Shown here piece by piece: positions 50,406 to 63,654 of a stretch of DNA of 64,000 nucleotides (position 1 is the first letter of the stretch; each line of letters begins with the position of its first letter). The translations under genes and the position numbers were made by a program. The stretch is from Ignavibacteria bacterium (GTDB lineage: Bacteria; Bacteroidota; Ignavibacteria; Ignavibacteriales; Melioribacteraceae). The notes under the pieces were generated by a model. It did not search any database. It saw only the letters and a program-made list of their open reading frames with translations, and had not been told where the DNA came from. The stretch is taken from contig VGVY01000003.1 in the NCBI GenBank assembly GCA_016873835.1, positions 38,854-102,853 on the forward strand, written 5' to 3'.

Positions 50406-52259
50406 ATGAAAACTTATTTTAGAATCCTACATTATGTAAACCCTTACTGGAAACATTTAACAGTTTCTGTTATCTGTACAATTTTATATGCATTATTAAA
50501 CGGTGCATCAATTTATCTATCCATTCCGCTTTTAGATACTTTGTTTCAACAAGCTGGTGTTGGGGTAGAAAGTATTGGAAGAATGTCGCCAGAAATAAAT
50601 ACAAATGCTTCCGGATGGATTTCAAATTTTGTCAATGAAATAACAAATTTCTTTAAAGGTCTAATATTCAGTGGAACAACTTCAGAAGTATTGTTTAAAA
50701 TATGTACTCTAATTCTTATAGCATTTTTAGGAAAAAATATTTTTGGTTATATGCAAGCTTATTTTTTAGCTTATGTAGAACAAGGTGTAATCAGAGATCT
50801 GAGAAACAAAGCATATAATCACCTTCATAAACTGCCAATGAGTTATTTCAAAAACGAAAAAACCGGCAATTTGATTTCAAGGATAACTAATGATGTTAAC
50901 GTTGTTCAATCAAGTGTTTCTGCCGTTTTCTTGAATATGATTAGAGAGCCTCTTACAATTATCGTGTTCATTGGAATAGCAATATCAATTAGCTGGAAAC
51001 TGACTTTATTTTCCATTGCAGTTCTTCCATTTTCATTAATAGTAATTAGTTACATCGGATTAGTATTACGTAAACAAAGCGGTTTGCTTCAAGAGAAAAT
51101 GGCAGATATTACTACAACGCTCCATGAAACTATAACCGGTGTGAAAATAGTTAAAGCTTTTGGAATGGAAGAATATGAGAACAAAAAATTCTTTAGTGAA
51201 ACATTCAAATTTTTTAAGCTTGTTCTTAAAATTACAAGGATTAGAAATATCTCAAGTCCAATTACTGAATTTTTAAGTGTAACAGTTGGAGTTCTGATTA
51301 TTTACTATGGAGCGCAATTAGTAGTTGTTGATAAAACTATAACAGCCGGTGAGTTCATTACATTTTTACTGGCAATATTTCAAATAATGCCTCCAGTAAA
51401 AGAATTAAGCACAGTGAACAATAGGATCCAAGAATCAAGTGCGGCTGCAGATAGAATTTTTCAGATTATCGATACTGAACCAATTATTAAAGACACTGAA
51501 AAATCCATTTTCTTCACTGATTTTAAAAATTCAATAGTATTTGAAAATGTTTCCTTTATGTATGAAGACTCAACGGAATTAGTCCTTGATAATATTAACC
51601 TTGAAGTGAAGAAAGGGAACATCGTTGCATTTGTAGGAGGCAGCGGAGCTGGAAAAACTACTCTGGTTGATATGGTCCCAAGATTTTTTGATCCAACTTC
51701 TGGGAAAATACTATTAGATGATATTGATATAAAAACCATAAAGATAAATGACTTACGAAAACTAATGGGTATTGTAACCCAAGAGACTGTTTTATTTAAT
51801 GAAACAGTTCGAAGCAATATTGCATATGGATTTGACGATTATCCCGAAGAACAAATTATTGAAGCTGCCAAAGCTGCAAATGCACATAATTTTATTATTG
51901 AACTGCCTAAGGGATACGATACAATAATCGGAGAAAAGGGAACTAAACTTTCTGGTGGGCAGCGTCAGAGAATTTCAATTGCACGTGCATTATTGAAAAA
52001 TCCTCCAATAATGATTTTTGATGAAGCTACTTCTGCTCTCGACAATGAATCAGAAGTTCTTGTGCAAGAAGCGATTGAACGATTAATGCATGATAGAACA
52101 ACTCTGGTAATAGCACATAGACTAAGTACTATCCGGAATTCTGATCGAATAATTGTATTGGACAAAGGCAAGATTGTTCAAGATGGCAAGCATGATAAAT
52201 TGCTTTCGGAAGAAAATGGAATTTATAGAAAATTATATGAACTCCAGTTCAGAGCCTAA
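50406..52259 (+). CDS. ABC exporter, MsbA-like fused permease/ATPase
   Basis: A 617-residue half-transporter. Residues 1-~350 are the six-helix membrane domain. The ATPase has Walker A Gly-Gly-Ser-Gly-Ala-Gly-Lys-Thr (about 412-420), the signature Leu-Ser-Gly-Gly-Gln, Walker B Ile-Met-Ile-Phe-Asp-Glu and the H-loop His in Ile-Ala-His-Arg. MsbA-type proteins flip lipid A-core or other amphiphiles across the inner membrane. The neighbourhood (O-antigen-ligase-like protein and a WaaE-like transferase next to it) favours lipopolysaccharide export. Confidence 0.88.
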   Translation: MKTYFRILHYVNPYWKHLTVSVICTILYALLNGASIYLSIPLLDTLFQQAGVGVESIGRMSPEINTNASGWISNFVNEITNFFKGLIFSGTTSEVLFKICTLILIAFLGKNIFGYMQAYFLAYVEQGVIRDLRNKAYNHLHKLPMSYFKNEKTGNLISRITNDVNVVQSSVSAVFLNMIREPLTIIVFIGIAISISWKLTLFSIAVLPFSLIVISYIGLVLRKQSGLLQEKMADITTTLHETITGVKIVKAFGMEEYENKKFFSETFKFFKLVLKITRIRNISSPITEFLSVTVGVLIIYYGAQLVVVDKTITAGEFITFLLAIFQIMPPVKELSTVNNRIQESSAAADRIFQIIDTEPIIKDTEKSIFFTDFKNSIVFENVSFMYEDSTELVLDNINLEVKKGNIVAFVGGSGAGKTTLVDMVPRFFDPTSGKILLDDIDIKTIKINDLRKLMGIVTQETVLFNETVRSNIAYGFDDYPEEQIIEAAKAANAHNFIIELPKGYDTIIGEKGTKLSGGQRQRISIARALLKNPPIMIFDEATSALDNESEVLVQEAIERLMHDRTTLVIAHRLSTIRNSDRIIVLDKGKIVQDGKHDKLLSEENGIYRKLYELQFRA

Positions 52260-55089: not shown

Positions 55090-55988
55090 TTCTTGGAATT
55101 ATTCCTAACATATCGAAACCCGAAATTATTAATGTACTTTCTGAAATAATTGATGATCTAAATACTCACAAAATGAAATTCTACGTTAGTCAATCTCTTT
55201 TAAAACATGGTGGGAATTTTAAAAATATTCTCGCTGAAAACTTATTATTAGAAGATGAAGAACTAATCAAAAAATCTGACATGGTAATTTCAATTGGCGG
55301 AGACGGAACGATGCTTCACACCGCATACGAGGTGAGAAATTATTCAACTCCTATTCTTGGTGTGAATATTGGTAAGCTTGGTTTTTTAGCAGAATTTGAT
55401 TTGAACAGTTTTGGTGAATTTATAACTGAAATAAAAGAAAAAAATTATATTGTTGAAGAGCGAATGGCTTTAGTTGGATTTGTTAACGAAGAATCTGATA
55501 GCAAACTTTATTCAATAAATGATATTGTGATTGATAAAGGTCCTTGGCAGAAAATGATTGAATTAACCGTAAAGGTTGATGATGACTATGTTACAACTTT
55601 CTCAGCAGATGGAATTATTATTGCTACACCAACTGGTTCAACCGGTTATTCTTTGTCTACTGGCGGACCAATTCTAAGTCCATCTGCCGACGTAATAGCG
55701 TTAAGTCCAATTGCACCTCATTCACTTACTATGAGACCACTTGTAATCGCAAGCAATCAAAAAATATCAATTATTGTTAAGTCGCCTCATGAAAAAATAC
55801 AAGTTAGTTGTGATGGGCAACGAGTATTTACTTTCCCATCAAAAACTAGAATTGATATTGAAAAAAGTAATAAACCAATTAAACTGGTACATTCAAGTAA
55901 AACCAACTATTTTGAAATTTTGCGGAACAAACTTTATTGGGGATTAGATGTTCGATTGGCAAATAGCTCAAAGGAGAAATTATCATGA
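55086..55988 (+). CDS. nadK: NAD kinase
   Basis: A 300-residue protein overlapping the transferase gene by 4 bases. It phosphorylates NAD to NADP in the cytoplasm. The signature Gly-Gly-Asp73-Gly-Thr is present, as are Gly-Val-Asn-Ile-Gly-Lys-Leu-Gly-Phe-Leu and Thr-Pro-Thr-Gly-Ser-Thr-Gly-Tyr-Ser-Leu-Ser. The length is normal. It is coupled to envelope genes only by position. Confidence 0.95.
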   Translation: MILGIIPNISKPEIINVLSEIIDDLNTHKMKFYVSQSLLKHGGNFKNILAENLLLEDEELIKKSDMVISIGGDGTMLHTAYEVRNYSTPILGVNIGKLGFLAEFDLNSFGEFITEIKEKNYIVEERMALVGFVNEESDSKLYSINDIVIDKGPWQKMIELTVKVDDDYVTTFSADGIIIATPTGSTGYSLSTGGPILSPSADVIALSPIAPHSLTMRPLVIASNQKISIIVKSPHEKIQVSCDGQRVFTFPSKTRIDIEKSNKPIKLVHSSKTNYFEILRNKLYWGLDVRLANSSKEKLS

Positions 55989-56488
55989 GAAAAACTTTTA
56001 TGTTTATTTTGTTATTAGGAATCATTTCATATGCACAAGAAAAAAACAAACAAATGATTGATGAGAAATCAGGGAAATTAATTTTAATCGGCTATTGTGA
56101 TAGAACTGCTTTTGCTGATACTAACTATTCTTGGTGGTTTAACAGTGAGTACGATAACTATGAATATAATGCTTCAACTGTAGATTCACTAAAACATGAA
56201 TTATCCAATATTCTCATAAAAATTGTTATGGGTTCATGGTGCAGTGATAGCAGAAGGGAAGTCCCTCGTTTTTATAAATTGCTGGATGCTATAGAATATA
56301 ATTATAATAATTTTACATTGATTTCTACAGATAGAAAAAAGGAAAGTCCGGAAGGAAATATTTCAGAGTTAGAAATAAAATACGTTCCAACATTTATCGT
56401 ATATAGAAATGATAAAGAAATCGGAAGAATAATAGAAACGCCAAAAATTTCGTTAGAAAAAGATTTGCTAGATATAATAAGACAATAG
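55985..56488 (+). CDS. thioredoxin-fold protein with CxxS active site
   Basis: A 167-residue protein overlapping nadK by 4 bases. An N-terminal signal peptide (residues 4-17) points to the periplasm. The fold is thioredoxin-like, with Gly-Ser-Trp-Cys86-Ser-Asp-Ser89 in place of the Cys-x-x-Cys pair and a cis-Pro in Val-Pro-Thr-Phe. CxxS proteins cannot act as ordinary dithiol reductants and more often trap or isomerise disulfides. A second Cys (C38) is in the mature part but remote. The family is secure; the function is unknown. Confidence 0.8.
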   Translation: MRKTFMFILLLGIISYAQEKNKQMIDEKSGKLILIGYCDRTAFADTNYSWWFNSEYDNYEYNASTVDSLKHELSNILIKIVMGSWCSDSRREVPRFYKLLDAIEYNYNNFTLISTDRKKESPEGNISELEIKYVPTFIVYRNDKEIGRIIETPKISLEKDLLDIIRQ

Positions 56489-56516
56489 AAGGGCAGTAAG
56501 CCCTTCTAATTTAGTT
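56488..56516 (+). terminator. rho-independent terminator between convergent genes
   Basis: A 7-bp stem GAAGGGC (56488-56494) with GCCCTTC (56500-56506) and loop AGTAA, then TAATTTAGTTTTTT. The stem begins with the last base of the thioredoxin-like gene's stop codon, and the tail overlaps the kamA stop. Confidence 0.8.
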
Positions 56517-57701
56517 TTTTGAATTTTCAGATTGAACTACTTTTACCGATGATGCTTCTTTATAATTTTTCGGTTTTTTACTCGAACCATTTTTCTTATC
56601 ACTTACTTCTACTTTAATATTATTTAGGCCAAATTCAGGGTGCTTACCATTTCCGTTTGTATTAGTTGCTTCGTGATACACATAAACCTGATTTTTATAA
56701 TTCTGAAGAATAATACTATTCTCATCTTTATGAAGAACATATTGAGGCAAAATAGGAATCTTACCGCCGCCGCCTGGTGCATCAATAACAAAATGAGGAA
56801 TAGCCAACCCGCTTGTATGTCCGCGCAACTTAAACATTATTTCCAATCCTTTATCAATCGAGGTTCGAAAATAATTTGCTCCTCTTGTTTCGTCAGCCAT
56901 ATATAAGTAGTATGGTTTAACTCTAATCCTCAATAACTTATTAAACAATTCTTTCATCACATCTGCATCATCATTCACACCTTTCATAAGAACAGCTTGG
57001 TTTTGAACTGGACATCCGGCATTGGCAAGCATTTCGCATGCTTTTGTACTTTCTGGTGTTATTTCCCAAGGATGATTGAAATGTGTATTGATATAAATAG
57101 GGTGATATTTTTTAATTATCTCGCAAAGTTTTGGTGTTATTCTGTGTGGTAAAACACATGGCATCTTTGTACCAATGCGAATTATTTCAATGTGTGGTAT
57201 TTGTCTAATTCTTTTAAGAATTTTTTCCAGCATTGTATCGGTCAGCATTAAAGGATCACCGCCAGACATTATTACATCCCGAATTTCTTTATGATCTTCG
57301 AGATATTTAAATGCTGATTCAAGCTGCCTCATAGAAATTTTATCAGAGTTACCAACTTTTCTTTTTCTTGTACAAAAACGGCAATACATTCCACATTGAC
57401 TTGTAGTGAGAAAAAGAACTCTATCAGGATAGCGGTGAGTAATATTAGGCACCGGACTCATTGCATCTTCCTGAAGCGGATCTTCATAACCTTCCATATC
57501 TTCAAGTTCCTGAATATTCGGTACGCACTGCAGCCAGATTGGATCACCTGGATAACGAATCAAACTAAGATAATAAGGATTAATTCTAGCTTGAAAGAAT
57601 TCATCTAGCCCTTCAGCTACAGTTCTATCAAGTTTAAATTTATCAACTAATTGATCTACTGTGTGAATACTATCCCGGATCATTTGCTGCCAAAGTTCCA
57701 T
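56511..57701 (-). CDS. kamA: KamA-family radical SAM aminomutase, lysine 2,3-aminomutase type
   Basis: A 396-residue protein. The radical SAM cluster is C103-x3-C107-x2-C110. The PLP lysine is K314 in Ala-Pro-Gly-Gly-Gly-Gly-Lys. D270 and D307 are spaced exactly like the two Asp residues (293, 330) that hold the lysine side chain in Clostridium lysine 2,3-aminomutase, and K314 matches K337. Lysine to beta-lysine is therefore the expected reaction. Glutamate 2,3-aminomutases are reported to replace both Asp residues. The C-terminus ends in a Lys/Ser-rich tail of about 40 residues. It is last in a minus-strand operon after two ATP-grasp genes and a GNAT, an arrangement suggesting a beta-lysine product. 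Confidence 0.88.
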   Translation of the reverse strand: MELWQQMIRDSIHTVDQLVDKFKLDRTVAEGLDEFFQARINPYYLSLIRYPGDPIWLQCVPNIQELEDMEGYEDPLQEDAMSPVPNITHRYPDRVLFLTTSQCGMYCRFCTRKRKVGNSDKISMRQLESAFKYLEDHKEIRDVIMSGGDPLMLTDTMLEKILKRIRQIPHIEIIRIGTKMPCVLPHRITPKLCEIIKKYHPIYINTHFNHPWEITPESTKACEMLANAGCPVQNQAVLMKGVNDDADVMKELFNKLLRIRVKPYYLYMADETRGANYFRTSIDKGLEIMFKLRGHTSGLAIPHFVIDAPGGGGKIPILPQYVLHKDENSIILQNYKNQVYVYHEATNTNGNGKHPEFGLNNIKVEVSDKKNGSSKKPKNYKEASSVKVVQSENSKN

Positions 57702-57712
57702 GACTTGTCCCT

Positions 57713-58186
57713 TTATGTTTTTATGTATTTACCAAAGACTATTAAATCGTCATTGATTTTATAAAAATCTTTAATTTCTGCAACAATTGAATAATTATTT
57801 CTGAAATAAAAATTTCTAGTTGGAGCATAATTTTCTTTAGATGAAGTTTCTGCAAGAATCCACCTTCCATTATTCTCTTTAACGAAATTTTCTGCATGCT
57901 CAAGTAATTTTTTTCCAACTCCATTATTTTGTGAATTAGGGTCAACAACAATCCAATACATGTCAAATACTCCATCGGTGAGGGCTCTTTTACCAGTGCA
58001 ATGGTACCCACTGATTAATCCATTTTCTTCATAGATAAAGATGTTGTAATAACCATTCTGTTTATCACTGAGTGTATCATCAATTAATTCAACAGCAACT
58101 TTCTTTTCTTCATCAGAGAAGTTTTCTATGTTACTAATAATATTAATCAGTATTTCTCTATCGTCAGATTGCAATCTGCGTATCAT
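57713..58186 (-). CDS. GNAT-family N-acetyltransferase
   Basis: A 157-residue single-domain acetyltransferase. The acetyl-CoA pyrophosphate loop is Gln-Asn-Asn-Gly-Val-Gly-Lys-Lys-Leu, preceded by the Val-Val-Asp-Pro strand. Its start overlaps the preceding ATP-grasp stop by 23 bases, and kamA follows 11 bases after its stop, so all are in one operon. It is shorter than AblB, the beta-lysine acetyltransferase of methanogens (about 270 residues), so AblB identity is not supported, but acetylation of a beta-lysine product is possible. Confidence 0.85.
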   Translation of the reverse strand: MIRRLQSDDREILINIISNIENFSDEEKKVAVELIDDTLSDKQNGYYNIFIYEENGLISGYHCTGKRALTDGVFDMYWIVVDPNSQNNGVGKKLLEHAENFVKENNGRWILAETSSKENYAPTRNFYFRNNYSIVAEIKDFYKINDDLIVFGKYIKT

Positions 58187-59222
58187 ATTGCGCTCTATTT
58201 AAAGCAAAATTTAAAATCTTGTTAAGTAATTGTTCATAACTAATTCCGGCTGCATTTGCAGACCTTACAAATCCAGAATCAGGGGAGATATCCGGGTTCG
58301 GATTAATTTCTATTACATAAGGAACATTTTTTGTGCTCAACCGAATGTCAACTCTTGAATAGTCACGGCACTCAAGAGCATGGAAAGAAGTTAAAGCAAT
58401 TTTTTCAATTCTTTGTTTTAATTTTTTATCTAATGGAGCCGGGCATCTGCCAGCAGTATTTTTATAGTATATACTTTCTGGCGACCACTTAGCCTCATAC
58501 GTTATTATTTTTGGTAAGTCATTTGGGAGTCCATCAAAAATAATTTCAGAGATTGGAAGTATTTCATTACCAAGAATTGCCACATTTAATTCTCTACCAT
58601 CAATATATTCTTCGATTATCACACTCTGATTAAATGCATTGAATAAATAATTTAGCCTTTCTCTCAGACTCTCATAATTGTTTACAACAGAGTGCTCTGA
58701 AATACCAATGCTTGCATCTTCATTTGCAAGTTTTAAGATAACCGGGAACCTAAGATTAAATTTATTCTCTTTTGGAATTTTGTTAATATCTGCAATTACA
58801 TGCTTAGGGGTTCTTACACCATGCGAATGTAATATTTGTTTAGTTAGATCTTTACCAAGACAATTACCAAGGCAAGTGGAATTATTACCCGTGAATGGAA
58901 TGTTTAGCAAATCGTACAAACCAGCAAAGTAGCTCTCAAGGTTAGAGTTCCCTTCAACAGATTCAACAAAGTTTAGAATTGCATCAGGACTGTAATTAGT
59001 TATTTTTTTAATTGCATGCTGAATATTTCGATTGATTGCAAGAGAATCAACAGTATAATATTTCTTCTGTAATATTTTTTGAATATTATCAATCTGCTTC
59101 AGAAAATCTCGTTCAGATAAATCTACATCTTGATGTTCCTCTTGTATCTCTTTGCCAAGGTAGTTATTATAATATTTAATAGGCTCGTTATAACAGATTA
59201 ATATTTTTCGATCAAGCGTCAT
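58164..59222 (-). CDS. ATP-grasp ligase, D-Ala-D-Ala-ligase-like (second copy)
   Basis: A 352-residue protein. The ATG overlaps the upstream ATP-grasp stop by 4 bases (ATGA). The N-terminal domain precedes Asn-Ile-Pro-Phe-Thr-Gly-Asn. The ATP-grasp core has Phe-Pro-Val-Ile-Leu-Lys, Glu-Glu-Tyr-Ile-Asp-Gly-Arg-Glu, Arg-Val-Asp-Ile-Arg-Leu and the metal-site Glu-Ile-Asn-Pro-Asn-Pro-Asp. These enzymes form an amide between two amino acids through an acyl-phosphate. The end Asn-Pro-Asp-Ile-Ser-Pro-Asp-Ser-Gly-Phe differs from true Ddl (Asn-Thr-Xaa-Pro-Gly), so peptidoglycan D-Ala-D-Ala is unlikely. The substrate is unknown. Confidence 0.85.
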   Translation of the reverse strand: MTLDRKILICYNEPIKYYNNYLGKEIQEEHQDVDLSERDFLKQIDNIQKILQKKYYTVDSLAINRNIQHAIKKITNYSPDAILNFVESVEGNSNLESYFAGLYDLLNIPFTGNNSTCLGNCLGKDLTKQILHSHGVRTPKHVIADINKIPKENKFNLRFPVILKLANEDASIGISEHSVVNNYESLRERLNYLFNAFNQSVIIEEYIDGRELNVAILGNEILPISEIIFDGLPNDLPKIITYEAKWSPESIYYKNTAGRCPAPLDKKLKQRIEKIALTSFHALECRDYSRVDIRLSTKNVPYVIEINPNPDISPDSGFVRSANAAGISYEQLLNKILNFALNRAQYDTQIAI

Positions 59223-60295
59223 AATAAATTATATCTTTTAGCTGCAGTTACTAATACTCTATTTATAGTATCTTCATAAGTCATCCCAATTGCTCTAGCC
59301 GCCTTAGGAAAACATGAATTATCAATTGGATTTGGTAGCATGCCGGGCAATGGATTAATTTCAATAATATTTGGATTACCATCACTATCCAATCGAAGAT
59401 CGATACGACTCCAGTCTTTGCACCTTAATACTTTATAGGTTCTAAGAGCAATATCTTTAATCTTGTTTTCTAATTCTTGATCGATCTTAGCTGGGCAAGT
59501 AAAGATATTTAATGGATTATCGCGTGTATCCGCAATCCATTTAGCTTCGAATGAATAGATAGGGATTAAATCTTTGGGTAATTCATTAAAATTAATTTCA
59601 ACGATTGGAAGAATTGTTGTATCAGAATTATTGCCAATAATTGCAACAGTAAATTCGCGCCCTGGTAAAAACTCTTCTATTATAAAAGGCTGGTTGTAGG
59701 TTTCTAAATTTTCTTTTAATCGATTTTTAAGGTCCTCTAAATTAGTGATATAAGATGAATTAAAAATCCCTTTACCTGATCCTTCGGCAATTGGTTTCAT
59801 GATTACTGGGAATTTCAAGTTAAAGTTATCAATATCCTCCAAAGATTCTGCCAATTGAAATTTTGCGTTTGGGATATTGTGATAACTCAATACTTCTTTT
59901 GCTCTTGATTTATCAAGGCAAGTCGAAAGAGTAAGTGGATCAGAACCGGTGTAAGGAATATTTAACATATCTAGCATAGCTGGGATTTGAGATTCGCGAC
60001 TTATTCCGTTAATACACTCCGCTACATTGAAAACAATATCAGGTTTTGCAGTTTTAAATTTTTCAAATGCATTATCATTAGCTTCAATTAAAGAAACATT
60101 ATGAAATTTTTCTAAGGCATTCTTAATTGCATTGATGGTTTCGAAAGTGTCCCATTCAGCGTATTTGTCATTAAACGAATTATTCTTTTTGCTATCTGGA
60201 GGGTCTTGTGCGGATTCGAAAGAATCATCTTCTTCCGGTTTTACATTATATGTTAGAACAACTTTTAATTTTTTATTTGGTACAAAGGAACTAAT
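59219..60295 (-). CDS. ATP-grasp ligase, D-Ala-D-Ala-ligase-like (first copy), predicted ATT start
   Basis: This is a 358-residue protein with a predicted ATT start at 60293-60295. The frame is open from 60412, but no ATG, GTG or TTG occurs in it before the ATG at 59977, which would delete the first 106 residues. Those residues are conserved family sequence: Lys-Val-Val-Leu-Thr-Tyr-Asn, then Tyr-Ala-Glu-Trp-Asp-Thr, then Pro-Asp-Ile-Val-Phe-Asn-Val-Ala-Glu. AAGGA lies 7 bases before the ATT. The core has Ile-Pro-Tyr-Thr-Gly-Ser-Asp-Pro, Glu-Glu-Phe-Leu-Pro-Gly-Arg-Glu and Glu-Ile-Asn-Pro-Leu-Pro-Gly. It is a paralogue of the next gene. Confidence 0.75.
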   Translation of the reverse strand: MSSFVPNKKLKVVLTYNVKPEEDDSFESAQDPPDSKKNNSFNDKYAEWDTFETINAIKNALEKFHNVSLIEANDNAFEKFKTAKPDIVFNVAECINGISRESQIPAMLDMLNIPYTGSDPLTLSTCLDKSRAKEVLSYHNIPNAKFQLAESLEDIDNFNLKFPVIMKPIAEGSGKGIFNSSYITNLEDLKNRLKENLETYNQPFIIEEFLPGREFTVAIIGNNSDTTILPIVEINFNELPKDLIPIYSFEAKWIADTRDNPLNIFTCPAKIDQELENKIKDIALRTYKVLRCKDWSRIDLRLDSDGNPNIIEINPLPGMLPNPIDNSCFPKAARAIGMTYEDTINRVLVTAAKRYNLL

Positions 60296-60323
60296 AAAGA
60301 ATTCCTTCCAAATTTTTGTTACT

Positions 60324-60351
60324 AATATAACTATTAATTTTTTTTTTGCAA
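60324..60351 (-). promoter_or_regulatory. candidate promoter for the ATP-grasp/GNAT/kamA operon
   Basis: On the minus strand TTGCAA (60351-60346) and TATATT (60329-60324) are separated by 16 bases, about 28 bases ahead of the predicted ATT start. The region is very AT-rich, so a chance match is possible. recG ends 123 bases upstream, so read-through from recG is the alternative. Confidence 0.3.
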
Positions 60352-60418
60352 GAAATTTGATAAAAAATTTTTCAAATAGAAAATCCGAGTGAGAGAAAAA
60401 AAATTCACAAAGTCAAGT

Positions 60419-62596
60419 CTAACCGATCTTCGAGAGTTGAATGTGGTTTGAATAATTTTCTTTTAGAATTGTTTTGATCAAAGAATTTTTTTGTTCGCGA
60501 AGAAATGGATCATCAGAAATAATTTTAAATGCTGAGTCGCGTGCATCTGTTACAATTTTATAATCATCAATCAAGCTGGCAAATTTTAATTCTGGAATAC
60601 CACTTTGTTTTGTACCAAATATATCTCCTGGACCGCGCAACTTAAAATCAATTTCAGACAAATCAAATCCATTAGAAAATTGCAGCATGGCATTTAATCT
60701 TATAATAGATTTGTTTCTTTCAATTTGTTCTTGTGATAGATATTCAAAGTTGTAATTAAATTGATTTGATTTAATTGCAAGAGCATCTTTTGTGATTAAT
60801 ATGCAGTATGCTTGCTTAATACCCCTACCAACTCTTCCTCGTAATTGGTGAAGTTGAGATAATCCGAATCTATAAGCATCATTAATAACTATAATGTTTG
60901 CATCTGGGATATCAATTCCCACTTCAATTACAGTTGTTGAAATGAGGACATGATACTTTTTATTAGCAAAATCTAACATAACTTGTTCTTTTTCTTGCCA
61001 ATTCATTTTTCCGTGAATCAAACCAACATTCAACACGTTTAAATAATTGTTTTTCAATTCCTTATAGTATGTTTCAGCAGCTTTCAAATCAAGTTTATCT
61101 GAATCTTCAACTAATGGGTAAATCAAAAAGGTTTGGTTATTTTCTTTTGATTTATCAATTATGAATTTGTAAACATCGAGTAATTTATTTTCACCTCTTA
61201 TATATGTTTTAATTTGCTTTCGATTAGCTGGCATTTCATCAATTATTGATAAATCCAGGTCGCCATATAAGGTCATCGTTAGTGTACGCGGTATTGGAGT
61301 TGCCGTCATAATTAATACATCTGGGCATAAGCCTTTGCTGATTAAGGCTGATCTTTGTACTACACCAAATCTATGCTGCTCATCTATAATAATCAGTCCT
61401 AAATTTTTATACTCAACGTTTTCTTCAATCAAGGCATGAGTGCCAATTATTATTTGAGCTTTTCCACTTTTTATATCAGATAAATTTTGATCTTTTAAAG
61501 ATTTTTTCTGACCTCCAATAAGTAATGTAATATGAATGCTAAATTTTTGTAATAGAATTGCAAAATTTTTAAAGTGCTGATCAGCTAATATTTCAGTTGG
61601 CACCATAAATACTGATTGATACCCACTACTAACAACAATGAGCATTGTTATTAATGCAACAATAGTTTTTCCGCTGCCGACATCACCTTGTAAAAGCCGG
61701 TGCATTGGTTTATCACTTTCTAAATCTTTACGAATTTCGCTTAATACATTTACTTGGGATTTTGTCAATTGATACGGCAATGAATTTAAAAACTCTTTTA
61801 AAAATACTGATGGAGTTTGATAGTAATGATTTCTATTCTCATTTTTTACTAGCGTCTTCCTAAGGGCAACTAAACATTCAACATAGAATAACTCTTCGTA
61901 TTTCATTCGGTGTTGAGCGTTATGTAGTAAATCATGATTCTGTGGAAAATGCAAGTTCTGGATTGTCGTTTTAATATCAAGCAGATTCTTTTCTTTAATT
62001 AGGAATTCTGGAAGAGTTTCATTTAACTCATCTGAAAAGTTATCAACTGCCTGATGAATTATTTTTCTTAGACTGAAATCTCCGATGTTTGTTAATCGCA
62101 GTTCTTTTGGCAGTCGATAAAAAGGAATAATTTTACCGGTGTTTATAAACTCCTTGGATTCTATTTCTGCAAGTTTGTCAAAATCTGGATGTGCAAATTG
62201 CAAATGTTCATATTTTGTTATAACTGGTTTTGAAGATATAGCATATATCTCACCGGTATTAAAAATATCTTTGAAAAACTTTATCCCTTGAAACCAAATA
62301 CATTCAAAAAATCCAGATTTATCTTTAAACTTTACTTTAAGAAGTTGTTTTTTACCATATCTAATAAATTGTTTTGAAACAACTTCTCCTATGATAGTCA
62401 CTTCTCCATCATAACCATTACGAATTAATTGATAGACTTTTACTGTATTTAATATTGTTGTTCTATCTAAATATTTTGTTGGGAAGTAGTACAATAAATC
62501 TTCAATAGTATTAATTCCTATTTGAGCGAAAGATTCGGCTCTTTTAGGCCCAACCGATTTTAAATACTGAACAGACTTTGAAAGATTATCCGTCAT
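60419..62596 (-). CDS. recG: ATP-dependent DNA helicase RecG
   Basis: A 725-residue protein of normal length. RecG remodels stalled replication forks and Holliday junctions. The N-terminal wedge/OB domain runs to about 250. The helicase core has Walker A Gly-Asp-Val-Gly-Ser-Gly-Lys-Thr, the DExH box Asp-Glu-Gln-His-Arg-Phe-Gly-Val, motif III Thr-Ala-Thr-Pro-Ile-Pro-Arg and motif VI Gln-Leu-Arg-Gly-Arg-Val-Gly-Arg-Gly. It lies 59 bases after gpsA on the same strand, so plsY-gpsA-recG are probably co-transcribed. Confidence 0.96.
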   Translation of the reverse strand: MTDNLSKSVQYLKSVGPKRAESFAQIGINTIEDLLYYFPTKYLDRTTILNTVKVYQLIRNGYDGEVTIIGEVVSKQFIRYGKKQLLKVKFKDKSGFFECIWFQGIKFFKDIFNTGEIYAISSKPVITKYEHLQFAHPDFDKLAEIESKEFINTGKIIPFYRLPKELRLTNIGDFSLRKIIHQAVDNFSDELNETLPEFLIKEKNLLDIKTTIQNLHFPQNHDLLHNAQHRMKYEELFYVECLVALRKTLVKNENRNHYYQTPSVFLKEFLNSLPYQLTKSQVNVLSEIRKDLESDKPMHRLLQGDVGSGKTIVALITMLIVVSSGYQSVFMVPTEILADQHFKNFAILLQKFSIHITLLIGGQKKSLKDQNLSDIKSGKAQIIIGTHALIEENVEYKNLGLIIIDEQHRFGVVQRSALISKGLCPDVLIMTATPIPRTLTMTLYGDLDLSIIDEMPANRKQIKTYIRGENKLLDVYKFIIDKSKENNQTFLIYPLVEDSDKLDLKAAETYYKELKNNYLNVLNVGLIHGKMNWQEKEQVMLDFANKKYHVLISTTVIEVGIDIPDANIIVINDAYRFGLSQLHQLRGRVGRGIKQAYCILITKDALAIKSNQFNYNFEYLSQEQIERNKSIIRLNAMLQFSNGFDLSEIDFKLRGPGDIFGTKQSGIPELKFASLIDDYKIVTDARDSAFKIISDDPFLREQKNSLIKTILKENYSNHIQLSKIG

Positions 62597-62655
62597 AAAG
62601 TAAATGATAAGTTATATTAAAATATAAAGAAAAATTAAGAAGTGAAGTAGTTGAA

Positions 62656-63654
62656 TTAATCTTCAGGCTTCATTTCACGAGTCATTAATTCGTAAGTAAC
62701 CTTGATGGGATCTCTTTCCTCAAATAGTATTTTATATACTGCATTACAAATCGGCATTTGAATTTTATATTTTTGTCCAAGCTGATAAACAGACCGGCTT
62801 GTTTCCACTCCTTCTGCAACCATTTCCATTGAATTCAAAATATCCTTTAACTTTCTACCTTTTCCAATTTGCTCGCCAACAAATCTATTTCTACTATGTT
62901 TGCTCATACAAGTTACAATCAGATCTCCCATTCCAGACAAACCGGAGAAAGTTTCAGGCTTTGCCCCTAATGCAATCCCAAGTCTAGATATTTCTACAAT
63001 TCCTCGTGTCATGATTGCGGCTTTTGTATTATCACCAAATTTTGCACCATCAATTATTCCGGCTCCAATTGCGATTACATTTTTTAATGCACCTCCATAT
63101 TCAACACCGAGTAAATCAGTTGAATAATAAACGCGGAAGTAAGAAGTTATGAATGCAGACTGAATTTGTTTTGCTGTAAATTCATCTGTAGATGCAGCGA
63201 CAATTGCAGTGGGGACTTTTCGAGATACTTCCTCTGCATGACTTGGACCAGATAAAACACCAATTTGTGAAGGTGAGATATTTTTGATTTCATCTTGAAT
63301 AATTTGTGAGACAGTGAGGATTGTGTTTTTCTCTATTCCTTTTGCTACACTAACAAAAGTAGTATCAAGGTAATCATATCGTTTAACATATTTCAAAATG
63401 TCACGAATAAATTGCGAAGGGACCGCCAATACTATCATATGTTTATCAGTACAGCTTTCTTGAAGTGAATGTGTAATAGTTATTTCTTTAGGAATTTTAA
63501 CGTTGGGAAGGTATACTTTATTTTCTCGATTTTTAAAAAGAGCTTTAGCATAGCTCTTTTTGTATTCCCATAAAGTTATATCATGGCCATTGTGATAGAG
63601 TAAAATCGCTAAAGTAGTTCCCCATCCACCGGCACCTAGGACAGATATCCTCAT
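62656..63654 (-). CDS. gpsA: glycerol-3-phosphate dehydrogenase (NAD(P)+)
   Basis: A 332-residue protein. It reduces dihydroxyacetone phosphate to sn-glycerol-3-phosphate, the backbone for phospholipids. The NAD-binding Gly-Ala-Gly-Gly-Trp-Gly-Thr-Thr is at the N-terminus, and the catalytic-domain segment Glu-Tyr-Gly-Gly-Ala-Leu-Lys-Asn with its catalytic Lys is near residue 190. It lies 4 bases after plsY, whose product uses the same metabolite, so the pair is functionally matched. Confidence 0.96.
   Translation of the reverse strand: MRISVLGAGGWGTTLAILLYHNGHDITLWEYKKSYAKALFKNRENKVYLPNVKIPKEITITHSLQESCTDKHMIVLAVPSQFIRDILKYVKRYDYLDTTFVSVAKGIEKNTILTVSQIIQDEIKNISPSQIGVLSGPSHAEEVSRKVPTAIVAASTDEFTAKQIQSAFITSYFRVYYSTDLLGVEYGGALKNVIAIGAGIIDGAKFGDNTKAAIMTRGIVEISRLGIALGAKPETFSGLSGMGDLIVTCMSKHSRNRFVGEQIGKGRKLKDILNSMEMVAEGVETSRSVYQLGQKYKIQMPICNAVYKILFEERDPIKVTYELMTREMKPED

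Follow-up and report, generated by a model that had tools for sequence, protein, structure and literature searches.

A four-gene set of a lysine 2,3-aminomutase-like enzyme, two ATP-grasp ligases and an acetyltransferase in Ignavibacteria, possibly for an acetylated beta-lysine peptide

What could a lysine 2,3-aminomutase-like enzyme, two ligases resembling D-Ala-D-Ala ligase (Ddl) and a small acetyltransferase make together? The question is raised by four adjoining genes on the minus strand of a 64,000-nucleotide stretch of an Ignavibacteria bacterium genome (contig VGVY01000003.1 of assembly GCA_016873835.1, positions 38,854 to 102,853), hereafter the window. In the order of transcription these genes encode LigA (59219..60295) and LigB (58164..59222), both Ddl-like ATP-grasp ligases, a 157-residue acetyltransferase (57713..58186) of the GNAT family, called GNAT below, and KamA (56511..57701), a lysine 2,3-aminomutase-like radical S-adenosylmethionine (SAM) and pyridoxal phosphate enzyme. 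The layout reported in the first-pass annotation was exact on re-check, LigA and LigB sharing 4 bases, LigB and GNAT sharing 23 bases, and GNAT being separated from KamA by 11 bases. Its family calls hold as well: the two ligases, 37% identical across 316 columns, match PF07478 (128 bits for LigA and 120 bits for LigB), the third protein matches Pfam GNAT, and the fourth is a KamA-type radical-SAM protein. All four genes are genuine, and they form a group. Based on their order and overlap, their co-occurrence, the residues of KamA and of the ligases, the loss of Ddl specificity and the absence of AblB, they may be read as a biosynthetic operon with a small acetylated beta-lysine di- or tripeptide as product, a tentative reading to which we give slightly less than an even chance. 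The substrates, the step order and the product of the set are those that we infer below, and an acetylated or peptide-linked beta-lysine compound, as already proposed, is the best guess.

Co-occurrence of the four families, named beforehand as the refuting check on this grouping, was found strongly across the window's class, in other families of the phylum and in Acidobacteriota-type genomes. A LigB profile search of named genomes gave 147 related stretches, the best 80 of which were analysed. The order LigA-LigB-GNAT-KamA on one strand was present in 71 of the 80 records, with the end gene partly cut by a contig edge in five (L021, L024, L026, L057 and L065), and the set was interrupted by a contig end in four others (L035, L042, L051 and L071). 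The cultured Stygiobacter electus is among the carriers (L031). Among 90 intact sets, in which a number of genomes are counted twice, 72 keep the four-base overlap of LigA and LigB, and a recG-family gene was present in 77 of 104 clustered stretches, from which the position of the locus looks inherited and not mobile. The remaining five records, carrying Acidobacteria or Aminicenantes labels (L049, L079, L083, L088 and L089), have a LigB-like gene alone in the stretch, with 50-52% identity to the query LigB; two of the genomes with such lone genes, G298 and G299, hold a separate four-gene set with distant ligases.

The sample of the phylum (Bacteroidota) consisted of 296 genomes, 73 of them in the window's class (Ignavibacteria), and the counts were made by hand. 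With E 2.2e-163 or better taken as a close KamA and 1e-60 as the threshold for a B-type ligase, a close KamA was found in 43 of the 73 class genomes, and in each of the 43 LigB is no more than about 2 kb away on that contig. Neither protein was found in 28 of the remaining 30 genomes, three of which (G066, G196 and G287) show a distant match to the KamA family. The other two have ligase genes only, located at the end of a contig in G047 and consisting of the third paralogue alone in G156 (see below), and no genome has KamA only. A strong GNAT match was present in 22 of 22 KamA-positive and 0 of 13 KamA-negative class genomes among the 35 compared, with a weak match (E 2e-5) in the KamA-negative G023. 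Fisher p values were 3.5e-18 for KamA with B-type ligase and 6.8e-10 for KamA with GNAT, both to be read as a guide only because the class genomes are related and not independent.

Outside the class, all four genes are present yet scattered in three families, f37 (seven of seven genomes), f49 (one of one) and f22 (one of two, G005 having no close KamA). In the sets of G298 (Acidobacteria label) and G299 (Aminicenantes label), the order is KamA-LigA-LigB-GNAT and the ligases are 29-34% identical to those of the window. Many tandem ligases were found across 199 searched genomes of the Acidobacteriota-type phylum, and 22 regions (20 in addition to those of G298 and G299) were opened there, chosen from the best ligase matches and hence uninformative on phylum-wide frequency: nine have the order KamA-LigA-LigB-GNAT, six have LigA-LigB-GNAT-KamA, two have KamA-LigA-LigB with GNAT about 1.8 kb beyond, and five are incomplete, including that of G317, which is cut by a contig end. 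The order LigA-LigB-GNAT-KamA was also found at short loci of G433 and G384. The association of the four families is maintained in two phyla, and their recurrence both in two gene orders and as dispersed genes is what one would expect of a shared pathway.

The substrate of KamA is central to this reading. On alignment with the solved lysine 2,3-aminomutase 2a5h, D270, D307 and K314 of the window KamA fall on D293, D330 and K337, confirming the lysine-type residues and the spacings that had been claimed. The protein has the marks of lysine 2,3-aminomutase, namely the CxxxCxxC cluster and the residues Arg134, Asp293, Asp330 and Lys337 (2a5h numbering), the last four with functional roles that we assume. 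An alignment of the 112 KamA rows nearest to the window's type, taken from cassettes, from scattered sets and from a few AblA-type copies, some genomes being represented twice, has Arg at the R134 place in 112, Asp at the D293 place in 111 (one gap), and Asp and Lys at the D330 and K337 places in 110 each (two gaps). The gap rows are frames cut by a contig end (L143) or by the end of the fetched stretch (L203), and Asp/Asp/Lys is kept in all 110 complete rows. Both Asp residues are present in 14 of 15 Acidobacteriota-type KamA rows; L152, an additional and distant copy carried by G299, is the exception. The expectation of beta-lysine thus stands as far as the conserved residues are concerned, but not at the level of the curated models: KamA passes the broad model TIGR00238 and scores best with the lysine model TIGR03820 (451.8 bits) among the lysine, glutamate and arginine aminomutase models (435.3 bits for glutamate and 354.7 bits for arginine), with all three scores below the respective cut-offs of 525.4, 650 and 600. 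A gene at L136:3321-5273 encodes a radical-SAM protein of 650 residues whose C-terminal part resembles KamA, and several relatives have KamA-like matches inside long open frames of similar size.

The two ligases had been described as having metal-site ends unlike true Ddl, a description that has to be corrected. The residues corresponding to K97, K144, E187, K215, R255, D257, E270 and N272 of E. coli DdlB are all present in both window ligases, and these ATP and metal residues are kept in every LigA and LigB row except for E270, which is replaced by Asp in 3 of 25 LigB. The accompanying claim that the window ligases are not D-Ala-D-Ala ligases is supported on other grounds. Both score under the curated cut-off of each of the 25 NCBIfam Ddl models listed, the acceptor loop of DdlB is altered in both, and among Ser150, Tyr216, Ser281 and Leu282 of DdlB, which we take to be specificity residues, the window LigA retains Ser150 and Ser281 and the window LigB Ser281 alone. 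The Y216 place is occupied by Trp in 45 of 47 LigA and 25 of 25 LigB, the S150 place by Ser in 45 of 47 LigA and by Ala in 23 of 25 LigB, and the L282 place by Cys in 40 of 47 LigA and by Gly in 25 of 25 LigB. An acid is found at the DdlB E15 place in most LigA rows; for LigB the alignment at this place is unsure, MAFFT giving no acid in most rows and BLASTP pairing LigB E36 with the LigA acid. Since the ATP and metal residues are kept and the specificity residues are changed, the ligases should still bind ATP and metal, and form amide bonds on substrates other than D-Ala.

In a midpoint-rooted tree of 133 ligase rows, the A side holds LigA, its Acidobacteriota form, the ligase LigR described below and Ddl in a clade of its own (support 100), and the B side holds LigB, its Acidobacteriota form and a third paralogue, Lig3. 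By this split, the SH-aLRT value of which is 93 and below the mark of 95, LigA and LigB look like old paralogues travelling as a pair. Ddl-type proteins outside the set, two of the five being from cassette genomes (G140 and G152), cluster with E. coli DdlB. D-Ala-D-Ala ligase has the same fold family and the same ATP and metal residues as the window ligases, but the latter differ from it in the scores under the curated cut-offs, the replacement of Tyr216 by Trp, the changed acceptor loop and the position outside the Ddl clade.

Some further ligase genes were observed in the course of this comparison. The third B-side paralogue of the window's own genome (L094:355-1431, on another contig) diverges from a C39-peptidase-like gene, and the two kinds of gene adjoin again in L101 and L102. 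Proteins of about 650 residues with a methyltransferase domain followed by a Ddl-like ligase are encoded at L095:5996-7939 and L097:5815-7785 (the domains by Pfam for L095); the L095 protein was rejected as a fused version of the cassette, with no KamA near it in the fetched stretch. An 898-codon frame in L137 was also rejected as a fusion, for Pfam finds only ligase domains, at its C-terminal end, and the remainder is accordingly taken as open GC-rich sequence.

The matches of GNAT are to general families of this type, none of the curated equivalog models reaching its cut-off. Structure prediction and structure search were applied to this protein, and the predicted model (pLDDT 94.4) was nearest among solved structures to 2r7h, Dde_3044 of Desulfovibrio desulfuricans, with 34% identity and a TM-score of 0.93-0.95. 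Dde_3044 resembles GNAT in both sequence and fold, and it is named a putative D-alanine N-acetyltransferase, its activity being only putative. The window's genome gave no match to AblB (TIGR03827), which is over the cut-off in 12 of the 296 phylum genomes, none of which is in the window's class; on these grounds, and with Dde_3044 as the nearest solved relative, the possibility that GNAT is a true AblB was rejected. The known AblA-AblB system is like the window set in placing a lysine-type aminomutase beside an acetyltransferase, but the window set has two ATP-grasp ligases, a different and shorter GNAT, and a KamA under the AblA cut-off. Among plasmids, 9 records contain GNAT relatives, and all four that were opened have them in other contexts; ligase relatives are present in 72 plasmid records, and of the two opened one is unrelated and the other, pTHIMO01, has an adjoining KamA-family gene. 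On this plasmid of Thioflavicoccus mobilis (L235), the Ddl-like ligase gene and the KamA-family gene face each other, and the pair adjoins diaminopropionate and diaminobutyrate genes.

Taking these features together, a route may be proposed in which KamA would convert lysine to beta-lysine, LigA would activate a free amino acid and couple it to beta-lysine, or act in the reverse order, LigB would add a second bond or use the product of LigA or another acid, and GNAT would acetylate an amine and remove its charge, the amide bonds of both ligases being formed at the cost of ATP. From the Ser at the S150 place and the mostly acidic residue at the E15 place, LigA probably takes a free amino acid first, while the Ala of LigB at the S150 place suggests that it works on the product of LigA or on another acid. 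The most likely role is that of a stress-protecting cytoplasmic metabolite, and a compatible solute is possibly the first candidate. As described in PMC9337991, ablA and beta-lysine constitute an osmoprotectant route under a Na+ riboswitch. According to PMC8070244, N-acetylglutaminylglutamine amide (NAGGN) is an acetylated dipeptide osmoprotectant, the operon of which encodes a GNAT-family acetyltransferase. The NAGGN pathway (AsnO, Ngg) shares GNAT chemistry and amide-bond formation with the proposed route; however, the NAGGN operon is without an aminomutase, and the window set is without an asparagine-synthase-like amidotransferase, no AsnO-type protein being found by Pfam in the four genes or their two flanking neighbours. 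Searches of the open-licence literature gave no account of the set, and the text of the Melioribacter roseus genome paper (PMC3534657) contains no words beginning with lysine or compatible. The set is a novel variant assembled from known enzyme families.

Several observations weigh against this reading, some of them against the solute role. Control by a Na+ or cyclic di-AMP riboswitch, an idea taken from PMC9337991, was rejected: no riboswitch was found at the gathering score in 10 and a further 11 loci carrying the whole set or the greater part of it (L219 and L221 being incomplete sets and L010 holding little flanking DNA), nor in the window stretch 55900-62700 even at E up to 1. No transporter or regulator lies within the set, and the weak AUU-type start of LigA described below suits a low-abundance product somewhat better than a bulk osmolyte. 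KamA scores below the curated AblA cut-off, and arginine or another diamino compound may be its substrate. Acidobacteriota-type LigA has Trp at the Y216 place in 0 of 11 rows and Thr at the S150 place in 10 of 11, changes by which the substrate may differ between lineages. The cassette is absent from 29 of the 73 class genomes, and partial sets exist outside the class: the fetched stretches of G342 and G333 have no KamA, G386 has no GNAT, G442 has a ligase alone, the short loci of G355 and G380 have LigA-LigB-GNAT but no visible KamA, a LigB-like gene occurs with KamA and no GNAT match in G296, and G300 has a LigB-like gene with no KamA match.

Other products and roles should be weighed against the acetylated peptide. 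That the product is N-epsilon-acetyl-beta-lysine, and nothing larger, agrees with the lysine-type residues of KamA and with the lack of any AblB over the cut-off in the class, but is considered unlikely because in two phyla both ligases accompany KamA and GNAT, and are retained alongside them where the genes are dispersed, and because GNAT is nearest to Dde_3044 and not to AblB. Protein modification, in which the ATP-grasp enzymes would attach KamA-made beta-lysine, for instance to elongation factor P in place of EpmA, might be suspected from the lysine loop KPGKGG in the elongation factor P of the window's genome (L147:1495-2061) and from the result that EpmA (TIGR00462) is over the cut-off in none of 19 genomes, the window's own included, by which modification of the EpmA type itself was rejected. 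This explanation appears rather improbable, however, since the ligases are closest to Ddl, a joiner of free amino acids, and two ligases and an acetyltransferase exceed what the job needs.

The membership of the ligases in the Ddl superfamily and the name of the solved GNAT relative, a putative D-alanine N-acetyltransferase, could also point to the cell wall, with the ligases building a beta-lysine-containing peptidoglycan precursor or cross-bridge; in view of the separate Ddl-type proteins in one clade with E. coli DdlB and the lack of any mur or flippase gene in the set, such a route is very unlikely. Small peptides are made by ATP-grasp ligases, antibiotics include beta-lysine peptides, and acetyltransferases serve for self-protection against streptothricin-type beta-lysine compounds. 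The set could by this comparison make a secreted antibiotic or signal peptide, with GNAT for self-protection, and an ABC-transporter-like gene does lie on the opposite strand at a distance of about 4 kb (50406-52259), with the same cluster in 27 of the 104 stretches. The set itself nevertheless includes neither transporter nor regulator, and its fixed neighbourhood, with the recurrent recG-family gene, is unlike most antibiotic clusters, so that this alternative is held to be quite unlikely.

A related arrangement was found in 12 other families of the phylum, in which a KamA-like enzyme occurs with an A-side ligase, here named KamR-LigR. A KamA match is present in 26 of 26 genomes with a LigR ligase, and the two genes are adjacent in 18 by hand count, as at L127:6879-9128 of G242 and likewise in 17 other genomes. 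Both KamR-LigR and the four-gene set combine a KamA-family enzyme with an A-side ligase, but in all 12 KamR rows compared the D293 place is taken by Gln, from which another amino acid is probably rearranged, and no GNAT match was found in the two KamR-LigR genomes checked. These pairs point to a broader class of pathways combining an aminomutase with a ligase, within which the four-gene set would be the lysine version with two further steps.

The start of LigA is of an unusual kind. The frame is real, but its start as quoted in the first-pass annotation, 60295, is an ATT codon, the first ATG being at 59977 inside the conserved domain. In the window, ATG, GTG and TTG are all lacking from the in-frame stop up to the conserved first strand of LigA, and a Shine-Dalgarno-like AAGGA (60303..60307, minus strand), similarly spaced in relatives, precedes the predicted ATT (AUU) start codon (60293..60295, minus strand) by 7 bases. 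Starts were surveyed in 71 loci (70 of the 80 records and the window; 4 further loci were open at the left end) by looking, from the last stop to the first strand, for in-frame start-like codons with a Shine-Dalgarno-like site 4-10 bases upstream, the motif being loose in that 4 bases suffice. Only ATT, ATC or ATA had such a site in 64 of the 71 loci, no codon in 7, and ATG, GTG or TTG in 0; these last three codons are wholly absent from the stretch in 24 loci. AT[TCA] was found at the same place, nine codons before the strand, in 59 of the 71 (49 ATT, 5 ATC and 5 ATA), with an in-frame stop no more than 12 codons upstream in 31 of the 59.

The other genes of the same records served as control. 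An ATG lies no more than 8 codons from the expected start in 79 of 80 LigB, 69 of 70 KamA and 68 of 72 GNAT, and AT[TCA] with a site, in the absence of a standard start with a site, occurs in 1 of 80, 0 of 70 and 6 of 72, respectively, rates that are only roughly comparable with those of LigA because the control scans 8 codons on either side of the first residue. Evidence against the AUU-type start also exists: 47 of the 71 loci hold an in-frame ATG, GTG or TTG without a site, often a TTG at the strand, L045, L048, L051 and L068 have ATG four codons before the strand, and LigA of several distant relatives begins with ATG at the strand itself. LigA is predicted from sequence to initiate at an AUU-type codon, and since LigB and GNAT overlap the preceding gene, a large part of the set may rely on this start. 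According to PMC5472188, the infC (ATT) and sigR (GTC) starts are both repressed by initiation factor IF3. The LigA start would set the translation of the overlapping genes and would be IF3-sensitive. That a widespread pathway for acetylated beta-lysine peptides exists and that its AUU-type start lets IF3 and the state of the ribosome pool govern how much of a stress metabolite is made is conceivable but doubtful.

On the upstream side of the locus, a recG gene on the same strand ends 123 bases before LigA. On the downstream side, a thioredoxin-like gene converges on KamA, and a terminator-like hairpin was detected by pattern scan in the interval between the two (56486..56508, counted on both strands), the longest stem among six scanned sites, for which shuffles expect 2.4.

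If the reading is correct, Ignavibacteria and Acidobacteriota, known mostly from metagenomes, share a small-peptide metabolite of which no report was found in the open-licence literature. By its start-codon pattern, a metabolic operon would join the few genes, such as infC and sigR, that begin with codons other than AUG, GUG and UUG. Many database proteins named D-alanine-D-alanine ligase are probably misnamed, and the pathway would give them a role, within a route that would couple the radical-SAM rearrangement of an amino acid with the formation of peptide bonds by ATP-grasp enzymes.

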